Of a DNA stretch of 64,000 nt, positions 1,270-63,431 are shown in pieces. The DNA is taken from NCBI GenBank assembly GCA_019787685.1, contig JAHNUO010000027.1, positions 62,001 to 126,000 on the forward strand, written 5' to 3'. Every line of letters begins with the position of its first letter. Positions within the stretch are counted from its first letter, which is position 1. Below the pieces are notes generated by a model. That model ran no database searches and was not told the origin of the DNA. It saw only the letters and a program-made list of their open reading frames with translations. The stretch comes from Chiua virens. Lineage: Eukaryota; Basidiomycota; Agaricomycetes; Boletales; Boletaceae. The translations under genes were made by a program, and so were the position numbers.

Positions 1270-4005
1270 GCCACAAGGTCGGAGAGGCCCTGCCACGTGT
1301 CACATCTCCGTCCGTGGATATGGCAGTGTGAGGAGTGACCAGCAACGACACCGAGCCTCTACAACATACGGCATAACAGAAAATGGTATTCTTAACATCC
1401 TTCCCGTTGGTATCTCATTGAGCTCGTCGTCTAAACATCATCTTGGCAGTAGTACTGGCCCCGATCGTAAACGCTAACCGGAAATTCTATGGACGTGTCA
1501 CATTCTCCTCCAACTTGATATCATAATTCATGATCAGACGATGTGGGCCAACGTGGTTTTGAGCTCACCTGCGGCAAAAAACCGACCGGGACTGTCCAAA
1601 CAAGGTATCAACACCGGAACATCCGAGTCAGCGCCAACGCGAAGCAGGCATACCATGCATGTCTGCCATGCCCAAACGGCAAATATTCTGGAGAAGTGGT
1701 GACGACCTGATAGGCTTTATGTCTTCCCCATCCTCGCGCATATTTGCAAACCGGGACGGATCAAACTTGTATGGGTTACTGTACAGTGCGTCATCGTAAT
1801 GTAACGCAACAAGGCCTGCATGGGTCCTGGTGCCCCTCGGGATCACCGGTCACCCTCTCGTCCGATAGCACAAAGTCCTTGATGGCCTTGCGTGCCAAAC
1901 CCACTGGAGAATAATAAGAATAAGTGAGCCGAAAGAGCCATGCGTGAAATAAGAAAAAAAAGTCTACAGAGGACCATCGACTTCATGCGTACGGTCTCTT
2001 TAAAGAAATTGTCCAATTTGTGCACCTTTCCCAAGGACATTCTCGACCATCCCTGTCTTGATGATAGTCTCAAATTCTCTTCCGCGGACTCCGGGGCCGT
2101 ACGGCCAGATTGTACAGCACGTATGTGAAACCTGGCATGCAGTAGTCTGACCAAGAGACCGAACAGAATCATAAAGTCCGGATGTCTGTATAATGCAGTA
2201 GGTGAAACGATCTTCACAAGCAGAAGAGACAAAGAACACACATGCATAACAGCAAAATTGACCGACAAGATATAGTGCGTCAAGGTTTCCACACTGACAT
2301 CTGACGCAGCTTCGTCCATCAGCCAGGATAAAATATTGTTCTACAGGAGAACGGATATGAGAACAGGCATGGATCGTAAACAAAGCACACGAACAGGTTT
2401 TTCGATCCAATCACCTCCATACTCATTTAAATACTTCCGCCGCTCCCCAACTATCGGATGCAGATGCGTTGCACCTCACATTGTGTATTTCGGGACGTTC
2501 GTCAGGAACGGGCAGCTGCACTGTGACAAAGCTGATACCAGATTGCTCTCCCACTGCCACCTTCGTGATTTGACGGTGATATCGAAACCCAACCCATTTT
2601 GATTTGATGCGGATCCAGATGATCATAGGCGCGATTGATCCGAGCTGCTATAATCCCAACAGGGCTCCGAGAGTTCAAAATGTCTCAGTGACTTTAATTG
2701 CAGTAACAAGATTGAAGAGACCCAACCACGTGTCATATCTCATCTCGTCTGTGACTGTGGCTATGGTAATGTGAAGAATGACTGGTAATGACACCTTTCA
2801 AATAGTGACAGAGAGGGTTGTGAAGAAAACACGCAACGTTAAACAAAAGGGTACTTCAATGTGGGCTCTTCAGCGAGCTCGCCGTCTGAACAACACCTTG
2901 GCAGTGGTATTAGCCCCGACTGTAGCTGCCAAACGGAAACTCGATGGACGCGTCGCATTTTCCTCCAGCTTGAGATCATAATTCATGACGATATGGGCCA
3001 ACATGGTTTTGAGCTCAGCTGCGGCGAAAAAACGACCGGGGCTGTTCAAAAAAGGGGGAGAATCAACACCGGAGCATCAACGGTGATCGAAGCAGAGTGG
3101 GCATACCATGCATGTCGGCCATGCCCAAATGCCAAGTATTCCGGAGATGTGGTGACAAATTGATGTTTTACGCCTTCCCCATCCTCTTCGCGCATGTTTG
3201 CGAACCGGAACGGATCAAACTTGTATGGGTTACCGTACAATGTGTCATCGTAATGCAACGCAACGAGGCCTGCATGGATCCTTGTGCCTTTGGGGATCAC
3301 CCTCCCGTCAGACAGCACAAAGTCCTCAACGGCCTTGCGTGCCAAGCTCACTGAAGGATAGAATTAAATGTGAATCGGAAGGACCTTGAATGGAATAAAA
3401 AGAATGTCTCACAAACGTTGATAGACTCCATACGTATTGTCTCCTTAAAGAAGCTGTCCATTTTGTGCATCTTTCCCAAGGACATTCTCGACCATTCCTC
3501 TTTCTCGAGGACAGTCTCAACTTCTTCACGGAGAGGTCGTGCGTACTGAGGATTCGCCGCTAGATTGTACAACGCGAGTGTAAAAACCTGACATGCAGTA
3601 TGACCAAGAGACTAAACAGGCTCGCAAAGTCTGACATACGTTGGATGTCGTCTGTATAATGCGGTGAGTAAGGCGATCGTCACAAACACAAACAACAGAA
3701 TACGCACATGGATGGCAGCAAAATTGGTCGCCAATACGTAGTCCGTTAATATCTCCGCACTGATGTCTGATCCAGCTTCATCCATCAACCAAGATAAAAG
3801 ATCATTCTACAAGGGAATATATATGTAAGCCGCCGTGGATCGTCAGCGAGGCACACAAACGGGTTTTTCGGTCCAATCACTTCCATACTCATTCAAATAC
3901 TTGCGCCGTTCCTCGACAATCGGACGAAGATGCGCCGCGCCGCGCCTCGTGTTCTTCGGGACGTTCGTTATGAAACGGGCAGCTACACTGTCAAAAGATT
4001 GAGAG
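1270..4005. repeat. Direct tandem duplication of about 1.25 kb (1270-2535 and 2710-4005)
   Basis: The second half of the P450 gene plus about 130 bp of its 3' flank occurs twice in the same orientation. Matching landmarks are the cgtgtca and aatgacacc/aacgacacc flanks (near 1300-1355 and 2730-2795), the shared 3' coding end, and the block ending at the cgggcagct sequence (near 2510 and 3985). The copies have diverged by many substitutions and indels, so the event is not recent. Only the downstream unit (2710-4005) is attached to a full gene. Confidence 0.75.
1415..2535 (-). pseudogene. Truncated, frameshifted cytochrome P450 copy
   Basis: This is a degenerate second copy of the C-terminal half of the P450 at 2870-4987. 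Recognisable pieces on the minus strand are AASDVSVETLTHYIL (I-helix side), GTRTHAGLVALHYDD, PYKFDPSRFANMRED and PGRFFAAGELKT after the heme cysteine. Homology starts only near 2535, so the membrane anchor and first half are absent. The reading frame shifts just before the FGHGRHA region, where the intact copy reads SPEYLAFGHG. A four-base insertion after the LAHIV segment creates a stop. The last coding stretch still resembles the intact gene up to the stop at 1415. With several frame breaks and no N-terminus it cannot make an active enzyme. It is a remnant of a local duplication. Confidence 0.85.
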
Positions 4006-37956: not shown

Positions 37957-40900
37957 ATGAATATAGATAATCCAGCTCAGCTTCCAGATCATCCATCGTA
38001 TGTGTAATTGTTTTCCTCGTCGCCATGTTGCAATACGCTAGTGTCTTACTATAGGGCGAATACAATCACCATCCGAGGTAGGTTTTGAAACGCCTGGTAT
38101 TGGGTCCTAAATTGCGAGCTAACTGTCTTCTAGACATCGAGATCCGGACTCAAGAACAGCGCAAGGTTTCGAGGCAATACGTCGTCCAGTTTTCTGTAAA
38201 CGGTATCTTAAAGTCAACGAGGAGAGCAAAGGAGGAAAATAACCGGGTTTCCTGGGGCGAAATACTACATTTGTGAGTGCAGGTACTTTTCTTTATTCCC
38301 GGGAGTTGAATAGCGTCAGCTATGGAGACGATCGTTCTGTCTTCGAAGTCAAGGTTTACCAGAAGCGTCGCGGCATCGGAAGGGACAAATTGATTGGATT
38401 TATTCCTAGTAGTAACACCATCAGTGGGGTTCTGGAAAGTTTGCAGGACGGAGGTACGAAGACGTTCTCTCTCGCACGTGCCACCCACTTATCTCTATGA
38501 TTGAAGTGTTCGAACAGACCCTTTTGAAGGATACCTCCGGAGGACCCGATATCTCGGGAATTACGATCAAGTTTGCTTTGATTGTCAGCTTTCCCGAGGG
38601 AGCTGGTGGAAGGCAGCTTCAAGCTACGGACCATGTCGCTCGGCCGGCCGAGTTGCTCGCTGGTGCCATTCCCACCCCCGTTGCCATACCCTTCATTGAT
38701 TCGACGGTGGACGCTGGAACGATCATCTTGCCAAAGGTACGGACGTCTAAGGATGCGTGGGATGTCTTGTTGGAGCGGGTTGAATTACTTAACAAGATCG
38801 TGGTCAATACCGAAGAGGTATTCAGTGTTCACCATCTCACGCCTGACGCTCTAAACTTAACACAGGTCCACCCATATGCGTCGCTGGCTTGGTCGGTTAT
38901 GTCCGCCGTAGACAAGGTCTGCTTGTCAACACTTATCATGTCCATGATATTATTACTCATCGCCGTAATGATTCACGCAGGTATTCCTGAACCAGAAACC
39001 TCGCCACGATCGAATTGTTCACTTAATAGGCGCGATGAACGACGTCCTCGCATTCGTTCATGACGCCGAGCCCCTGAAGAAGATTGAGTTGCAAATCGGC
39101 ACAATGCTGCTTCTAGTCCAACAAGTGACGGAGTGCGGGTTCTTCATTACCGAAGAACAGAACTTCTGTCAGTCATGGCGAGTGGTGTAGAGGGATATTC
39201 ACGACTTATCTTTGTTCCAGGGATTCGAACGGAATGGGATATCGCCGACGAAAAGATCACGGCCTACGAGCTCAAGTTGCAAGAACTCGAAACTGCATTC
39301 CTGGAGGGAGTCACTTTGCAGGCTGGACTGACTGTGGTTCGTATGATAAATGTTCGGGAACCCATTGGTATGTTCTATACTCGTCCTTTTGATGGGCTGT
39401 TGATCAACGAAAGATTCAGCGGAAACCACCGACCTGAGCAACGGGCCTTATGGTGCTAAGTATACGCAGGAGAAGCAATGCCACCCTGGGACACGCGAGG
39501 TCTTACTCCAGGAAATTTGCGACATTCTCAATGACCCCGATCCGCATGCCCCGCGAGTGTGTCTGCTCACCGGCGTTGCTGGATCAGGCAAGTCTGCGGT
39601 CGCTCACTCAATTGCTCGGCTGTATGATGGACAAGAAAGGCTCGGTTCGTTGTACTGCTTCTCAAGGATGGACGTCACGAAGCAGAATCCACGAAACTTC
39701 TTCAGCACTATCACTCGTGACCTCTGTGACCGCGATCCTCATTACAAGTCTGCTCTTTGTGGTACCCAGGGAGAAGATCCATTGTTTCTCGCGATGACCA
39801 CCCCGTCAGAACCCAGGGAAAACGTTCATGCCATTGGGCCCATCATCATTGTTGTCGATGCCCTCGACGAAAGCGGAGACCGAGATGACCGGCAACAATT
39901 TCTGGCCACGTTGTCAAAATGGGTCCGCGGACCTAACTTGCCGACTGGGCTTCGCTTCCTGATCACTGTTCGCACCGAGAGTGATATCCTCGCCGCGTTT
40001 CCGTCCGGCCGGTACGTCACTCATAAGCACATGAGTGACATCTCCGATGAAATAGTCGACAAAGACATCGAGACCTTTATCTACCATTCCCTTCGCCATC
40101 CAGAACCCGCATCAACCTGGCCTGATCATGAGGAGTGCAGACTGCTTGCCCAACATTCACAACATCTGTTTCAGTGGGCTGCGACCGCCTGCAAATTTAT
40201 TCAAGGCATTGGTGTTGTCAGACTCGACCCATCGAAGCGGTTTGAGATAGTTATGCAAAACGCCACCCGTGCTGTCCCTCACCACCTTGATGAATTGTAC
40301 GGGTGCATATTAGGTCAACTCCTCTCCACCGATGATGCCCGGGAATCCTTTCGAGAGTTGATGACCATTGTGCTTTCCCTCAAGGAGCCCCTTCCGTTCG
40401 ACTCACTTTCCGCCTTGTTTTCCGCTGACAAATTCCTGAACATCCGAGATGTCATGAAACCCATGGGATCACTACTGGATGTACTTGATAGGGATAAGCC
40501 CATCCGACCACTCCATACCTCACTCTACGACTTCCTTCTCGACGAGACCCGTAGCTCCATGTTCCATGTTCCTATCCAACCCCAGGATTCTCTCACACTT
40601 GGACGGGCATTACTTGCCTGCATGCGCAAGATGCTCAAGTTCAACATCTGCGACCTCAAGGATTCCCGACTCTTGAACAACGCAGTCCCTGACCTGTCAA
40701 GTCAGGTGACGAAGGCCATTCCCCTGCACCTCTCATATTCATGCCAGTATTGGATGGACCACTTTGCACACATACACTGTGCCCCAGGCCTGCTGGATGA
40801 AGTCACCCTTTTTTTCAAGACCTACCTTCCCTACTGGCTCGAAGCCATCAGCCTCCTCTCCCATTCCTCACCACTGTCCACTATGTTAGCTGCCCTGAAA

Positions 40901-43136
40901 ACATGCACTACCCTGATGACTTGGGCTAAGGTGAGATGGACTCATAATGAAGTGATCAGTACTAAACAAGGGATACCAGGATCAAGAGATAGCTGCTCTT
41001 GCATCAGATGCATGCCGATTCATCCAAGTGTTTGTTCCCATCCTGCAAGCATCTACTCCCCACCTATACTTGTCAGCAATGCCACAGACACCCACTATGT
41101 CCCCTCTATATGAGCTTTGGCAATCTCGACTCTTGATGCATGCCTCCACCACCTCTGGACAGCCATCTAACTGGCCTGTTGAAGTGTGCATCCTGCAAGG
41201 TCACAGAAATTCAGTTCAGTGTGTTGCCTATTCCCCAGATGGCAGGCATATTGTCACTGGTTCTTGGGACAACACCATTAGGGTGTGGGATGCAGCCACT
41301 GGTGAGACTGTGGCAGGTCCATTTGAGGGGCACACACATGTGGTCTTGTCTGTTGCCTATTCCCCAGATGGTAGGCATATTGTCTCTGGCTCAGGTGATG
41401 AGACTGTTAGGGTGTGGGATGCAACCACTGGCAAGACCATGGCAAATCCTTTTAAGGGGCACAGAGATTCAGTCTTGTCTGTTGCCTATTCCCCAGATGG
41501 CACCCATATAGTCTCTGGCTCAGAGGACAACACTGTCAGGGTATGGAATGCAACCACTGGTGAGACTGTGGCTGGCCCATTTGAGGGGCACAAAGGTTCT
41601 GTCCAGTCTGTTGCCTATTCCCCAAATGGTACCCACATTGTCTCTGGCTCAGTGGACAAGACCATTAGGGTGTGGAATGCAACCACTGGGGAGACTGTAA
41701 CAGGTTCATTCAATGAGCACACAAATTCAGTCTCCTGTGTTGTCTATTCCCCAGATGGCAAGTGTATTGTCTCTGGCTCTTCAGACAAGACTATCAGAGT
41801 ATGGAATGCAATCTCTGGTAGGAGTGTGGCAGGTCCATTTCATGGGCACACAGAGCCAATCACATCTGTTGCCTATTCTCCAGATGGCAGCCATATTGTC
41901 TCTAGCTCATGGGACAAGACCATTAGAGTGTGGAATGCAACCACTGGTGGTGCTGTGACAGGTCCATTTGTGGGGCACACAGATATAGTCTGGTCTGTTG
42001 GTTACTCACCAGATGGAAGGCATGTTGTATCTGGTTCTGAGGACAAGACCATCAGGGTGTGGGATGGAACTGCCAGGTACAATGTTGCCATGGAAGGCCC
42101 ATTTCATGGACACAAAGATTCAGTTTGCTCTGTTACCTATTCCCAAGATGGCAGGCATATTGTTTCTGGCTCAAAGGACAAAACCATCAGGGTTTGGGAT
42201 GTGACCAAAGGTCTAACTGTTGTAGGTCCTTTTGAAGGACACACAGATCTGGTCACCTCAGTTGCTTGTTCACCTGATGGCATTCATGTTGCCTCTGCCT
42301 CTGCAGACAAGACCATTAGGATTTGGGATCTGATGTCTGGTCAATCTGTTGGAAATCCACTCAAAGGGCATACAGGCCATATTCTCTCTATTGCCTACTC
42401 ACCTGATGGGAAGCATATCATCTCTGGCTCTCAGGACAAGACAGTTAGGATCTGGAACACAGGAACTGGCCAATTTCTTTCACTTATTGGTCATCTGGGC
42501 TGGGTTATCAGCATTGCCTTCTCATCTGATGGCATGCATATAGTCTCTGGCTCAGAAGACAAGAGTGTTAGAATTTGGACTATCACTGGCACCTGTGTGG
42601 CAGGTCCATTGGAGGGACATGAGGATTCTGTCACATCTGTTGCATATTCACCTGATGGTATGCATGTTGCTTCTGGCTCTTGGGACAAGACCATTAGGGT
42701 TTGGAATGTGGGCACTGGCAGGCCAATTACAAAACCACTCCAGGGACACACAGATCCTATCAGCTGCATCACCTATATATCTCATGGGAAGTATATTATT
42801 TCTGGGTCTTTTGACAAAACTATCAGGGTTTGGGATGCAACTAGTGGAGAACATGTGGCTGGCCCATTCTCAATACATTCATCTCCCATCACCTCTATTT
42901 CCTACTCCCCTGATGAAGTTTACATTGTATCCTGTACTTGGGATAAGACCATAAAGGTTTGTACCACACTTACTGGTAAGTTTACAATGGTTGCATTTTT
43001 GATTCCAAAGAATGTTGATAATGTGGATGCTCTATCAGGTCAAATAAGAGAATACCCACTCTATATGGTCTCTGGTTCAAGTGATAGGGCACCAAGAATT
43101 TGGAATGATATCACTGGTCAGTACCTGATAAGTTAA
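37957..43136 (+). CDS. C2-NACHT-WD40 protein (NWD, fungal NLR-like)
   Basis: STAND ATPase of the kind used by fungi in non-self recognition. The N-terminal exons spell a C2-like domain (DIEIRTQEQRKVSRQYVVQF, SVNGILKST, SVFEVKVYQKRRG, ITIKFALIVSFPE). Helical blocks follow (WDVLLERVELLNKIVVNTEE, HPYASLAWSVMSAVDKV, ETAFLEGVTLQAGLTVVRM). The NACHT domain has Walker A GVAGSGKS (39572-39595) and Walker B IIIVVDALDES (39841-39873), then TGLRFLITVRTESDI and a winged-helix-like IRPLHTSLYDFLLDE. An intron at 40931-40979 joins TWAK to DQEIAALASDACRFIQ. From about 41190 there are at least 14 WD40 repeats, and the frame stops at 43136. The codons change abruptly from CpG-rich to CpG-free near 41130. The P-loop to HAIGP spacer is shorter than I remember for the family, so a small deletion is possible. 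Confidence 0.9.
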
Positions 43137-44025
43137 CTCCAAGAATATCCTGGTTCACTCTCATTTGTTCCTTGTTTCCCAGATAGCAGGCAACTCATCT
43201 CTCACTCTGTGGGCAACATAATTATGGTGTGGAACACAACTACTAATGTGCCTGTCACAGGGTCCATTGAAGGGGCACACAGCCACAGTCTCCTCTGTTG
43301 CCTATTCTCCAAATGGCAGACATATTGTCTCTGGGTCTCTGGACAACACTATTAGGATGTGGGACATAACCACTGGTAAAGCTGTGGCTGGTCCATTCCA
43401 GGGGCATACAAATTTTGTCTTGTCTGTTGCCTATTCTCCAGATGGCAGGCATATAGCCTCTGGCTCTTTGGACAAGACCATTAGAGTATGGGATGCAACC
43501 ACTGGAGAAGTTATGACAGATCCATTTGAGGGGCATACAAATGCAGTCTGGTCTGTTGTCTACTCTCCAGATGGCAAGAATATTGCTTCTGGTTCTTCAG
43601 ACAAAAGCATTAGAGTGTGGAATGCAACCACTGGGGAAACTGTGGCAGGTCCATTGAAGGGGCACACAGATGTGATCTACACCATTGTCTATTCCCCAGA
43701 TGGCAGGCATGTTATCTCTGGCTCAGGGGACAGGACCATTAGAGTATGGAATGTGGCCACTGGTGAAGCAGTGGCAGGTCCATTTCAGGGGCACACTGGC
43801 CCAGTCTTTTCTGTGGCATATTCTTTGGATAGCAAGTGCATTATCTCTGCATCTTCTGATTCTGTTAAAATTTGGAAGGCCCAAGAGCTCTTTTCCTTTC
43901 CTGATTTACATATAGATGACCACTGGATCAAATCCTCCAATGGTGCTTGCTTTGGCTGGATCAGTCCTTATTGCACCCCTTACCTTCCTCTACATTCTTT
44001 GGTTATATCCTCTGACAGAGTTCAT
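41129..44025. other. CpG desert over the WD40 repeats (2.9 kb without CG)
   Basis: I checked every line of this interval for CG and found none. The bounding CpGs are at 41127-41128 and 44026-44027. The NACHT exons before it and the siroheme synthase gene after it are rich in CpG. TG and CA are abundant here, as expected if methylated CG had decayed. Confidence 0.9.
41190..43135 (+). repeat. WD40 tandem array, about 14 repeats of 129 bp, nearly identical
   Basis: Repeats of 43 codons share the frame SVAYSPDGRHIVSGS, xDKTIRVW and NATTGETVAGPFxGH. Several neighbours are almost identical at nucleotide level (for example the stretch gttgcctattccccagatgg recurs). Differences concentrate at a few residue positions. 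The last units before 43136 are more divergent (TWDKTIKVC and SSDRAPRIW). The array probably forms two seven-bladed propellers or one variable propeller surface used for recognition. Confidence 0.9.
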
Positions 44026-44082
44026 CGACTTAGTATCAACAGTTCCTTGTTTGGAGAATCATGGATTGCTTGTTGGAAATAG
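43137..44082 (+). pseudogene. Continuation of the WD40 array, cut off by a stop and a frameshift
   Basis: After the stop at 43134-43136 the same frame continues as a WD repeat remnant (FPDSRQLISHSVG, IIMVWNTTTNVPVTG). One extra G in cacagggtcc (about 43257-43266) then shifts the frame. From 43246 the shifted frame carries five clean repeats (GHTATVSSVAYSPNGRHIV onward). It ends in the family's usual non-WD tail: DDHWIKSSNGACFGWISPY, ISSDRVHRLSINSSLFGE and SWIACWK. The full protein thus once ended at 44082. A GT-AG intron over 43117-43182 could bypass the stop but not the extra G, and it would remove recognisable repeat sequence, so I prefer decay. A sequencing error at the G run cannot be excluded. 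Confidence 0.65.
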
Positions 44083-44361
44083 TTGTCCTATTCACTACTG
44101 CTTCTGTTCCTCTTTCCAATTTTTGTTCACAATGACATAGCTACTATGCAGGATGAATAGAGAGTAACATTTCCACATCCATGTTAGTAACCATCAGATT
44201 CCTAGCACTACCCAACAACTACAGGCAGTTAATGCATATAACGAAGAATAACCCCTTTCAGCCACCCAATTCGAGAGGACAGAAAGTTACTCGAAAAACA
44301 CACCAATACAGTAACGGGGCCTGTTACCTTCGAGAGGCGGTTCGTGACCAGTTTACCACCG
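44083..44361. other. 3' intergenic between convergent genes
   Basis: Convergent ends of the NWD gene and siroheme synthase. CpG reappears here. No feature seen. Confidence 0.5.
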
Positions 44362-46309
44362 TCAAAGATCCTCCCATCCAGCACCCAAACCTTCCCAAAC
44401 ATCCCACTTCCGACCCCCAAGCCACCTCGCGACGCGCTCTCGATCACGCCGTTCCAGCGCCTCCACACACTCCTCGACATCCTCAAGCACCCCCTCCCAT
44501 GCATCCCCGCCCTCCCCCTCCCTCCGTCCAAATGCCAACACCGCCCACCCAATCACGATCATCCCCGGCGGTCGCTGCTCCCCAACACCCGCCAACGCAC
44601 CCTCGACATTTTCGAGCGTCGACACGAGCACCCTCTGATCCGGCATCGACCCCCGTTCCACGATCGCGATCGGGAGGTAGGCCGGGTACGCAGTGCCATC
44701 ACGTCGTCCTCCGCCCTCGATGTCTGGGTCAGCCGACACGAGGGCACGCACCACCGAGCCGAGCCGGGCGACGCCCATGAGCACGAGCACGGTGCGTGCT
44801 CGGTCGTACCCCGGGAGCGCGACGGATTTACCGTGCCGCCCGACGCCGGTGCAGACGATAAAGGACTCGGCCACGCCGCGGTGGGTGACGGGGATGCCTG
44901 CACAGGCGGGTGCGGCGAGGGCAGAGGAAAGGCCGGGGAGGACGAGTGGGGTGAAGCCGTGGGTGCGGAAGTAGGCGAGTTCTTCGCCGGCGCGGGCGTA
45001 TACGATCGGGTCACCTTGTTTTAGCTGGTGACGAGTGGAGATGTGAGCACGGGATATCATATGGAATGGAAGGACGTACCCTGACGACGGTTAATCCGCG
45101 GCTGGCAGCCTCTACGGCGGCTTCCATCATTTCTATTTGAGCACCGTCGGCGTTTCCGGGGAATTTGCGTGCAATACGCACTTCTATGTGCGGTGGAATC
45201 AGCTCGAGGACAGGGGCTGGAACGAGTTTGTCCGAGAGAACGATGTCGGCGTGTTTCGTCAGCGCCTTGTGTGTCGCGAGCGTGAGAAGCGATGGGTGAC
45301 CTGGTCCAGATCCAGCAAGGATAATACGGCCTTTGGTAAGAGGACGGGTAAGATCGAGTCCATGCTGTGATCTTTTCTCGATCGTCGAGAGAGTGGGCGT
45401 CATCCCGTCGTGTGCGACCTGGCCCTCCAGAACCTCTCTCATCTCACGTTCTGACATCATCGCGAGGCGCGAGATCGGCCAATACTCGCTGACCTGCACG
45501 ACCCATCTCATCTGACGTTTGACAGCCTCGACGGCGCTCTCCTCCAAAGCAATCCCGGGAACCCGAATAGGAACTGGACGGTTTGGCGTCGCGGTGCTGT
45601 CTTCGCCTTCTTCGCTGGGGACGTCGTTCTCTTTGGCGATTTTCTTCGCCATCCGTCTCAGCTGTCCGACGTTTGTCACGGCAGTCCCGACCTCCTTGGG
45701 CAACGCAGCGACGATGTCCCTCCGTATTCGCCCTGCGAGCCGACATCCTTCCCCATTGGTGGTCACCCCAATCTGCAAGGGACTCTTGGAGGACGAACCG
45801 GGGTCAACGAAGCGATGTGTTGCTGCGAAGGAAAAGTCGCAGAGGTCCGGCATGTCCGCGACATTGATGGGAATACGGTGGGTGCGACATACCCTCGCGA
45901 GATGGGTCGCCCGGAGGCGTGCGGTCGAGGCTCCAGGCGATGTTGAGATGGTGTCGGTGACAGATACCAAAGATACATGGGTATTTGCAAGATAGTGATC
46001 CAAAGCGACCACGTCCCGGTTTATTTTCAACGTGTTGGCGGCCTGAGAATTCGGATGGGGCTCGGGAACGGGCAGACTGTCCCAGTCAAGCACGTCGAGT
46101 TGGCCATGCTCAGCGCGCCATCGTAACTCATCGCAGACTGCGCCTAGACCACCGCTGACCATGACTTTTACGACGGCGTCTGCTTCAAGGGAGGCATAAG
46201 CCCTGCTCGCTGCGAGCGCGTCCCCTCCAACGATGAGAACGGATTTGGTGGGCATTCTGAACGAGAGGATGAGAGACGCTCCGCCCATAGGTGGTGGGAA
46301 TGGATCCAT
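44362..46309 (-). CDS. MET1: Siroheme synthase: Met8-like N-domain fused to uroporphyrinogen-III C-methyltransferase, 630 aa
   Basis: Makes siroheme, the cofactor of sulfite and nitrite reductase. The N-terminal part has a Rossmann nucleotide-binding start (KSVLIVGGDALAASRAYASL) and the DLCDFSF block of Met8-type precorrin-2 dehydrogenase/ferrochelatase. The second half has the SAM-dependent tetrapyrrole methyltransferase signature ILAGSGPGHPSLLTLATHKAL, then ADIVLSDKLVPAPVLELIP, RLKQGDPIVYARAGEE, LVLPGLSSALAAPACAGIPVT and TRTVLVLMG-like strands. One intron (45025-45079) splits LTVVR and LKQGDP. The two exons give 1893 nt. Yeast keeps MET1 and MET8 as separate genes; the fusion resembles bacterial CysG. 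The methyltransferase half is certain. Activity of the N-domain is inferred. Confidence 0.9.
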
Positions 46310-46456
46310 GGTGGTTGTTGGTGAAGCGTCTGGATGAGAAAGATCATGGTTTCATGGGATCTACGGAACCCGGCGCGCTTGATAAAAATGACGGCGTGAT
46401 CATGAGCAAGCAGATGATTATGTCAGCTGGAAGCCGCTTGGAATTGCACCGAGTCC
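46310..46456. promoter_or_regulatory. Bidirectional promoter, siroheme synthase / SRP14
   Basis: Only 147 bp lie between the divergent start codons, so the two genes must share promoter sequence. A tgataaaaatgacgg stretch lies near 46380 and could act as a TATA-like element for SRP14; this is only a guess from composition. Confidence 0.5.
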
Positions 46457-60905: not shown

Positions 60906-61434
60906 ACTTTTTTTGTTCATTTACTTGTTTCAGGCTCTATGTCCATGTCATTTCTCATCATGATGTCCTTTCATGCCATGGGCATATGCCAAAACGACGC
61001 CACGGCTGTATCGGTCTGACTTATGTTCGTGCCTCAAGAATATTCTCCTTTCTATCGGACAAACGGTCTTATTTCGAGGTTGCGTTACCGCAGTGTACCG
61101 AGTATACTTCCGAATCAACATCGGCTGCCATCGTTAACACCGATATATCGACCTTCCGTCGATCGGCGTTTGAGGCGAGTCCCTCTCCCGAAACGATCAA
61201 CAATATTGGTACTGAGATACATGCGGGGTAAATGACATCAGTACTCATAATAGGGAGGACGCGTACACGTGAGAGTGTGGACATTCAAGCTCAAGCTTAA
61301 GTTTAAGTTGTTGTCTTTCTGATTCCATTCTACCTAATCTCATATGCGAGGCCCTTTTTACAAATTATTGACCATGCTTACAGGCCTCCAACCATCTTCC
61401 ACTACCATTCATTTAGTACCCCATGATTACTCCG
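60906..61434. other. Intergenic, no gene recognised
   Basis: Contains the 3' region of uS4. Composition becomes AT-rich and CpG-poor towards the right. Confidence 0.5.
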
Positions 61435-63431
61435 AGTCCAACCTTGGCCTACTTCCTGCCCACTGCATTGTCTGTGTTGATTGGTGTTCCCTCAATAGGG
61501 ATGGTCCTTCCCAATCACTGGCAGCCCTTGCCATATTTATCAACTTAGACTATTGTATGGACCATCTATGTTTGATGCCAACAGGCACCATTAAGATATT
61601 TGTCTGTAATGCCAAGAAGATATATTTCTTGGTTGAGATGATCACTCAAGCAGAGGATGTGATTACTGTGTGTTAGGCAGAGTGATCTGGACTTGGAAAG
61701 ACATTGGAATAGATGTGGATATGAAAGTTGGAATATGTATTGAGTGTTCTGACTGTTCCAAGTGGTTCCCAGCTTCAGTCTGTAACTCAGGCTGGTTCCA
61801 AACTGTAAACAAGTATAAATTTTTACTGTTTGCTTCTCAACTCACTTTTGGTTCATATGTCATTTATGCTATGATTCATCAACCTTGCTTTGTTACAGCC
61901 ACAATGTTCTGTTCCTTTCCCAGTTATGTTTCATTACTTGTTCAGTTCATTTGTTGCCAACCATATCCCCTTCAGTACACCACATTTGGTAGACTTTTTC
62001 CTGCTTCTTGATGTCCAGGCTTCAGTCTGATTCTGTATCCAGGTTGATCCAGGCTAAGGGTCATCACCTGCCTGCCACCACCTCTTCCTTTTTTTTTTGT
62101 TCCTTGATCTTCTGACTGTGCACCCTTTGGACTTTGGATCCACATGGATTATTTTTATATTAGTATTAATAATTCAAGCTGTCACATCTAACATCTACAT
62201 ATTGTTTTGAAACTCCTTTGTTCCATCCATCATCAGCCCAACCTGCCACAATTTTGCCTATCTACTTGTATTACAATGAAGAGGCAAGAGGTGTAAGCAC
62301 AACCTTCATCATTGGCACACCCCCACAAAAATTAGTCAACATGCCCACCTGCATTGTGTAGTATACCACACAACCATGACACAGTGACTCTACCCTCAAC
62401 CAAGATATGAAGTTTACTGACATGGTACATTCATTAAAAGGTCAAACATGATATGTACAGTAACTCCAAAAACTGTTGCAATAGCTAAATGCAATGCAGT
62501 GTGTGAAGTGCACTGCAAACAGGGGTGAGAGTTTCACTTAGGTCTGGTGGGATGAAAGATAGTACTCATGTTTGGCTACAAATTGGCCATTGGGTCATGT
62601 GATTTGGTTCCCAGGATCCCAAGATATGAATATTTTAAATCAATGACCCCATTGTAATGATTTTGTACTTGTAACTTGAGACATAGAATCTCATATGTAT
62701 TTATCAATGGATATTTGGTCTTTTTTGTGCTACAAACAAAGATATACATGACTACATTAAAACTGAGTTTGAAAATATACACACACTTTGTGACTTCATG
62801 TTATGTCACCATGAAATGTCTTTCTCCCCTTAGGAGAGTAATCAAGCTTTCTTGAGATACTGCCAAAGCTATTTGAAGGAGTTTGGGTCCAGAGAATGTA
62901 TAGACCAAGTCACAGACCCACATCACCACTTATTATGCCATTGGTGGATCTTTTAAAAGGATTCACATGGCCCTATGGGCAACCCTGGACCCCTCTTCTC
63001 CTTTGATGCCTCTGTTGCCTTTTGTCCTTGCCACCTGAATTACTGTCAGTTGGTTCATGTAGTTAGTATGAGCTTGATGAGTGAAGGAGGTGTGTTGTTT
63101 GCTCTTTCTCTTTCTTGTTCTTTCTAATGTTGTATCAGTTACTGTGATTACTCATGTCCCTAGGTGTAAGGGTCATATCTGAGGTGCAGGAAATGCTGAG
63201 CAAACACTATGTTGACTTTAGTGTTCTTTGACAGCATTTTGACTAAATTACCCAGGCTGTATTCAGACTGATGCTACAAATACAATGCTTTTCATGTGGA
63301 GGTCTCTCACATTGTCTATTGCTTTTGTTTTTGTTTTATGGGTTTGGGCTTAATTGAGCAAAATGAATAGCTTACTCTTAGGTCTATGCTTAAAAATCAC
63401 TTGGATGACATGTACACAATAAGCATCTTAT
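61435..63431. other. CpG desert, AT-rich, no gene recognised (2.0 kb)
   Basis: I read every line and found no CG between the CpG at 61433 and the one at 63432. The tract has only weak ORFs (for example one with CIVCVDWCSLNRDGPSQSLA) and no recognised domain. It abuts the LTR-like edge at 63489, and its composition matches the WD40 desert at 41129-44025. It probably represents an old repeated element or a heterochromatic flank. Confidence 0.8.

Follow-up and report, generated by a model that had tools for sequence, protein, structure and literature searches.

CpG loss in the WD40 repeat halves of a Chiua virens NACHT-WD40 gene family looks like the footprint of repeat-attacking mutation in apparently still functional genes

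Related systems in fungi

Repeat-directed methylation is known in fungi from the de novo methylation of repeats in the mushroom Coprinus and from methylation induced premeiotically (MIP) in Ascobolus; to our knowledge, both concern experimental repeats, with no mutational footprint in receptor genes. Here we describe a loss of CpG from the WD40 repeat halves of a family of NACHT-WD40 genes, which resemble NOD-like receptors (NLRs), in Chiua virens, beginning with one such gene in a 64,000-nucleotide stretch of contig C27 (hereafter, the window). The NWD genes of Podospora anserina have the same NACHT/WD architecture (PMC1805685; papers are cited throughout for individual passages). Repeat-directed mutation of their WD40 arrays was proposed as a supply of mutations (PMC1805685, PMC2873952), and possible repeat-induced point mutation (RIP) of NWD repeats is mentioned in PMC2873952. 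Two Podospora pseudogenes have NACHT parts mutated by RIP (CpA type) and unaffected WD parts, the selection-free WD sample, in which 8/9 CpA were mutated, was termed limited, and whether WD arrays trigger hypermutation was left open in 2007 (PMC1805685). In Chiua virens the pattern is reversed relative to those passages: the WD half is stripped and the NACHT half spared, and the loss is at CpG. The Podospora question, which had nine selection-free sites (PMC1805685), now has 4,650 synonymous sites, together with a control in the NACHT half of the same genes and controls outside the family.

Basidiomycota usually possess DNMT1 and DNMT5, with a preference for CG, and RID, which lacks a BAH domain, is seldom found in them (PMC7862722); in most, CpG methylation is confined to transposon-rich regions (PMC13297926). 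CpG-biased C-to-T mutation has been described in the transposons of species that have a Masc2-type DNMT1 but lack RID (PMC4352252) and in genome-wide single-nucleotide polymorphisms (SNPs), more commonly near repeats (PMC4014442). The Chiua virens arrays carry the same CpG-biased signature; unlike the transposons and SNPs of those passages, they are parts of NLR-like genes with open frames, in which one half is affected, the loss is near-complete, and its margins are bounded. WD repeats prevail among basidiomycete NLRs, and conserved repeats were called prone to RIP (PMC4986451); the words "CpG" and "methylation" do not occur in the text of that paper on internally conserved NLR repeats. No papers came up when CpG depletion was searched together with tandem repeats, or NACHT together with basidiomycete cytosine methylation, and the literature searched, mostly outside subscription papers, nowhere described a CpG loss restricted to the repeat halves of NLRs.

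CpG loss in the window gene and its family

The window holds 4,009 CG dinucleotides, of which two consecutive ones start at 41127 and 44026, leaving a gap of 2,899 bp; at the mean density of the window, ~181 CpG would be expected in 41128-44025, and the longest CpG-free gap over 200 shuffles of the window within 1-kb blocks was 235 bp. The absence of CG over this interval, noticed in a sequence-only reading of the window, was thus borne out. The second-longest gap is 1,999 bp (CGs at 61433 and 63432), those ranking third to sixth (216, 176, 130, and 111 bp) all adjoin 41127-44026, and the maximum elsewhere is 108 bp. By 500-bp bins, the CpG observed/expected ratio (o/e) is 0.00 over 41501-44000, 0.40 and 0.06 in the two preceding bins from 40501, and 0.75 in the bin after 44000; the remaining window lies at 0.75-1.41, except for its last five bins (from 61501) at 0.00-0.58.

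Three plus-strand open frames over 39404-44082 can be read, with putative introns, as one NACHT-WD40 gene (Table 1), in which a NACHT NTPase domain (PF05729, 37.3 bits, cut-off 26.7) precedes an array of 129-bp units with 19 WD40 stretches (14 + 5). CpG in the NACHT frame is normal as far as ~40700; thinning starts at ~40710, 0.4-0.5 kb ahead of the first repeat, and recovery comes only from 44242. The sequence-only reading had the CpG-free tract coincide exactly with the WD40 part, the switch fall near the start of the repeats, and the repeats be almost identical, and on all three counts it needs correction: the tract comprises the array and its margins, its edge lies upstream of the first repeat, and the repeats have a mean best self-match of 0.73 (90-bp windows), or 73-74% by Tandem Repeats Finder (TRF).

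A DNA search of the genome (48.3 Mb, 136 contigs) with the tract as query gave at least 48 matches. They fall into 27 gene-like loci, a fragment on C24, and five hits that span just 107 bp; these counts are lower bounds, and NACHT-WD40 genes too unlike the query, L038 being one, fall outside the family count. At 24/27 loci (the window gene, L015-L034, and L039-L041), both the array and the NACHT half (0.7-2.6 kb ahead of the array, with L039 contributing just 1.1 kb) were read. All 24 arrays have an o/e of 0.000-0.031, totaling 28 CpG in 44.67 kb, where 2,663.6 are expected (o/e 0.0105), whereas the NACHT halves have an o/e of 0.95-1.20 and a total of 3,127 CpG against 2,990.3 expected. Array pieces of 700-800 bp from the three remaining loci contain no CpG (49.0, 45.0, and 41.0 expected). 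A recognition half stripped of CpG beside a spared NACHT half, as first noticed in the window gene, is therefore seen in 24 loci, with CpG-free array pieces in three more, and the loss is real, strong, and general in the family members found in this genome. Most arrays have ~13 units of 129 bp each, and mean best self-match is 0.91-0.97 in 13/24. The assembly includes homologous contigs (C6 and window contig C27, 95.7% identical over 10 kb; C8/C17 and C9/C43 are suspected from matching hits), and gene counts therefore include alleles.

Within the arrays, CpA (o/e 1.92) and TpG (1.45) are in excess and TpA is low (0.49), so the change was from CpG to TpG/CpA; classical RIP of the CpA type was rejected on these values. 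T precedes 15/28 residual array CpGs, so no preference for TpCpG is visible, and for 5/28 the flanking letters are identical in related loci. For each array and each NACHT half of the 24 loci, synonymous sites were counted in the longest open frame. When a third position is C or T and is followed by G, it is C at 9/3,090 sites in the arrays versus 873/1,731 in the NACHT halves; before other bases, the arrays have C at 3,686/5,812. NCG likewise accounts for 7/1,560 of the NCR codons in arrays versus 507/1,001 in NACHT halves, and arginine is encoded by AGR in 468/479 cases versus 116/685 (CGN 569/685).

The pooled upstream profile is mostly at ~1 beyond 0.85 kb from the first repeat and at 0.5-0.8 from 0.8 to 0.45 kb; a single 50-bp step then takes o/e from 0.52 to 0.18, after which it is at most 0.14. 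Downstream, with L016 and L017 omitted because they are CpG-poor behind the array, o/e climbs from 0.11 to 0.83 at 300-500 bp past the last repeat. Gene by gene, the upstream edge is 315-695 bp from the array (median 518; 24/24) and the downstream edge 325-960 bp (median 445; 20/24), the other four showing no CpG recovery in the stretch read. The margins are similar in the coding linker upstream and in the 3' end and flank downstream, which points to a process at the level of DNA or chromatin.

Among the best 150 of 1,524 candidates for WD40 controls were five places outside the family, of which L035-L038 were read; the fifth, C40:94222, has a score identical to that of the L038 match. L035-L037 are WD40 genes, and NACHT gave no match at their places; L038 (C11) is a NACHT-WD40 gene whose repeats are degenerate (self-match 0.42-0.49). 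In 300-bp windows, all four have an o/e of 0.68-1.50, so the suggestion that other WD40 genes are equally poor in CpG fails. An ankyrin gene with diverged repeats (L043, one of 67 ankyrin matches) has an o/e of 0.79-1.32. The family search for the carboxy-terminal domain of RNA polymerase II, as a tandem control, matched nowhere and is uninformative; a TPR search gave three weak matches.

Dispersed duplication does not trigger loss at array strength. Nine NACHT halves (C32, C43, C9, C46, and C127; three of them, L021, L023, and L029, share one contig) are 96.3-100% identical over ~1.9 kb, yet have an o/e of 0.95-1.08, with 135/231 CpG columns invariant. The idea that any duplicated DNA is attacked was rejected on this ground, and the sparing of these halves also differs from classical RIP, in which unlinked duplicates are mutated above 1 kb and 80% identity. 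The ratio of CpG to non-CpG transitions is 0.9-1.8 in eight of ten NACHT pairs.

A survey of 314.7 kb (the window and L010-L043) for CpG-poor tracts of 400 bp or longer yielded the 24 arrays, DNA of a multicopy tract (window, L010, and L011), and three unannotated flanks, behind L016, L017, and L039 (joined to the array). L011 carries a transposase-type domain (PF01498). Transposon-like DNA of Chiua virens is thus also CpG-depleted in the few elements examined (the second tract of the window, L010, and L011). The C24 fragment (L044, C24:424500-426099) is a broken remnant of an NWD array, with about three WD40 units, one reversed unit, and stop codons around; it has 0 CpG in 1.6 kb and, being CpG-free throughout, does not discriminate as a test of few repeats.

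Mechanism and alternatives

The likely mechanism is a methylation-linked decay of CpG that is directed at repeats. Methylation is suggested because the loss affects only CpG and both strands, transposon-like DNA shows a similar loss, and cytosine methyltransferase genes are present: PF00145 matches at three places, L012 (with no further classification), L013 (with a BAH domain over the cut-off), and L014 (with below-cut-off BAH matches, in two pieces beside the catalytic part). CpG-specific loss with a gain of TpG and CpA is also the pattern of the RIP-like process of basidiomycetes. We consider it probable that CpG methylation with C-to-T decay has been directed at the arrays as at transposons and has come near saturation. 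The genome would then handle the WD40 arrays of the NWD family like transposons, converting CpG cytosines on both strands to T (CpG to TpG/CpA) until almost none remain, most likely through CpG methylation by DNMT1-type and/or DNMT5-type enzymes and subsequent deamination. Repetition, with tandem repetition favored, may be the trigger, and the target would be the array itself, with a spill of ~0.5 kb on each side. Purifying selection would pass synonymous hits, leaving arginine on AGR, and long open frames would survive; the WD40 frame is open for at least 1.9 kb in 22/24 family loci (L024 and L041 are shorter). Having no CpG to methylate, a CpG-free array might escape silencing and be able to stay repetitive, recombine, and be expressed.

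Several observations weigh against this explanation. Polyubiquitin (L042), with four tandem units of 66-82% identity and introns, keeps its CpG (o/e 0.46-1.20 by piece); tandem repetition alone is therefore insufficient at the four-unit size, and the idea that any tandem gene is attacked is not supported. The repeat-recognition trigger of the sequence-only reading accordingly has to be refined, in that duplication or a short tandem array does not suffice. The repeats of the window gene, L015, and L041 are only 67-73% alike, below the 80% identity quoted for RIP (PMC1805685), yet these arrays are fully or almost fully depleted. The 24 genes, including alleles on homologous contigs and recent copies, are not independent, and o/e is already ~0.7-0.8 from 0.8 kb upstream, so that the edge is not a single step. 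In the nine near-identical NACHT halves, CpG transitions exceed others 1.1-3.1 fold across ten 300-bp bins lying >0.6 kb from the array (each bin closer than this has only two CpG columns), and the transition ratio is 2.9 and 3.4 in two NACHT pairs with L023; there may be a weak effect on dispersed NACHT duplicates, and sparing would then not be absolute. By arithmetic on the codon counts, CpG context shifts the odds of C:T ~600-fold and of G:A ~400-fold in arrays (~1.3-1.4-fold in NACHT halves), a figure that presupposes equilibrium and gene conversion without bias. In mammals, the mutation rate of methylated CpG is roughly ten-fold that of other sites.

The WD40 unit is, moreover, present in very many copies, and copy number and tandem arrangement are confounded here. 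The trigger might be how many copies the genome carries in all, or the unit's sequence (e.g., small-RNA guided), rather than its tandem arrangement, which we regard as possible but somewhat unlikely. With ~13 units in most of the 27 loci, copies would total several hundred; dispersed multicopy DNA is equally CpG-poor, and so is the remnant of about three units, although its CpG-free surroundings make it non-discriminating. The NACHT halves spared on five contigs argue the other way, but nine are far fewer copies.

An improbable explanation is that CpG itself was selected against: CpG-bearing arrays would be methylated and silenced and CpG-free variants favored, making the loss an adaptive evasion and not directed mutation. 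Long open frames and constraint (dN/dS, the ratio of nonsynonymous to synonymous change, is 0.0-0.50 for the NACHT halves in 8/8 pairs tried) would fit this, as would a loss nearly complete in coding sequence. However, the loss enters non-repeated flanks on both sides and is equal in transposon-like DNA, and the broken fragment on C24 is CpG-free as well, though its surroundings are too. Miscalling of methylated CpG as TpG/CpA in a long-read assembly would likewise be CpG-specific and methylation-shaped, but this very improbable artefact was rejected: miscalls could not convert CGN into AGR codons and would place Cys, Trp, His, Gln, and TGA stops at arginine positions, whereas the frames are open. 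Codon usage or constraint on the WD40 protein, for which a lower arginine content (3.5% in the array protein versus 7.6% in the NACHT half) might speak, has a negligible chance of being the sole cause and was rejected on the synonymous-site counts and on codon resampling, since the 1,971 in-frame bp of the window array, with 0 CpG observed, would have a mean of 142.8 CpG (minimum 117; 300 draws) under NACHT codon usage and 47.4 (minimum 32; 500 draws) with its own codons shuffled, and the WD40 frames of L036, L037, and L038 hold 86, 85, and 207.

Under methylation-linked decay directed at repeats, a broader proposal can be made, tentatively and with rather more doubt than confidence: that mushrooms have a RID-independent, CpG-specific hypermutation that senses long tandem arrays in ordinary genes and, having come near saturation on the family members found, leaves arrays that can hardly be CpG-methylated and that stay repetitive, recombining, and expressible. 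The restriction to the members found is made because L038 is an NWD gene without loss. If true, this would be a self-exhausting genome defense tolerated by a receptor family, with codons confined to a CpG-free alphabet. The data suggest that a transposon-aimed defense can leave half of a receptor family recoded with frames staying open, and that duplication alone is not enough to bring that defense on; repeat-directed mutation of NLR WD40 arrays becomes directly testable.

Window features and minor observations

Table 1. Coordinates in the window of the features discussed
Feature	Position	Strand	Basis
Stretch without any complete CG	41128..44025	none	CG starts at 41127 and 44026
Whole CpG-poor tract	40701..44250	none	300-bp windows, o/e <0.2
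Upstream margin, non-repeated linker with CpG nearly gone	40710..41160	+	CGs at 40710, 40840, 41016, 41127
Downstream margin, C-terminal end and 3' flank	43861..44242	+	One CpG (44026) before 44242
WD40 repeat array, 129-bp units	41161..43860	+	Within-locus self-similarity; 0 CpG, 148.9 expected
TRF rows within the array	41202-42320 and 43261-43824		TRF
NACHT-bearing open frame, stop to stop	39404..41113	+	PF05729 residues 51-194, PF24883
WD40 open frame, 726 aa	40956..43136	+	14 PF00400 stretches
Second WD40 open frame, 286 aa	43222..44082	+	5 PF00400 stretches; frame differs from first
Second CpG-free tract, multicopy transposon-like DNA (comparator)	61434..63431	none	0 CpG, 78.0 expected

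No Pfam match to an N-terminal effector domain (e.g., HET) was obtained in the two frames tried upstream of the NACHT frame. The frame at 45011-46351 is 97% identical to the Chiua virens uroporphyrin-III C-methyltransferase.

Two young pairs had an array dN/dS of 2.34 and 2.17, and the other 6/8 pairs one of 0.31-0.63; these values, like those of the NACHT halves, come from small numbers of changes. In the arrays of young pairs L021/L022 and L026/L030, where dN/dS is >2, transversions exceed transitions (55 versus 36 and 60 versus 31), whereas the reverse holds in their NACHT halves (11 versus 27 and 10 versus 38); unit shuffling or diversifying selection is our guess for the transversion excess. 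The NACHT halves of L018 and L019 are 98.9% identical and their arrays only 91.5%.

Within the second CpG-free tract, C27 carries a 1,431-bp piece (61517-62947), with ATC at both borders, that the homologous C6 lacks. The piece and the surrounding DNA on both contigs are CpG-free. Its CpG loss probably predates the insertion, because the piece is itself CpG-free though the flanks are 98.7-99.4% identical.

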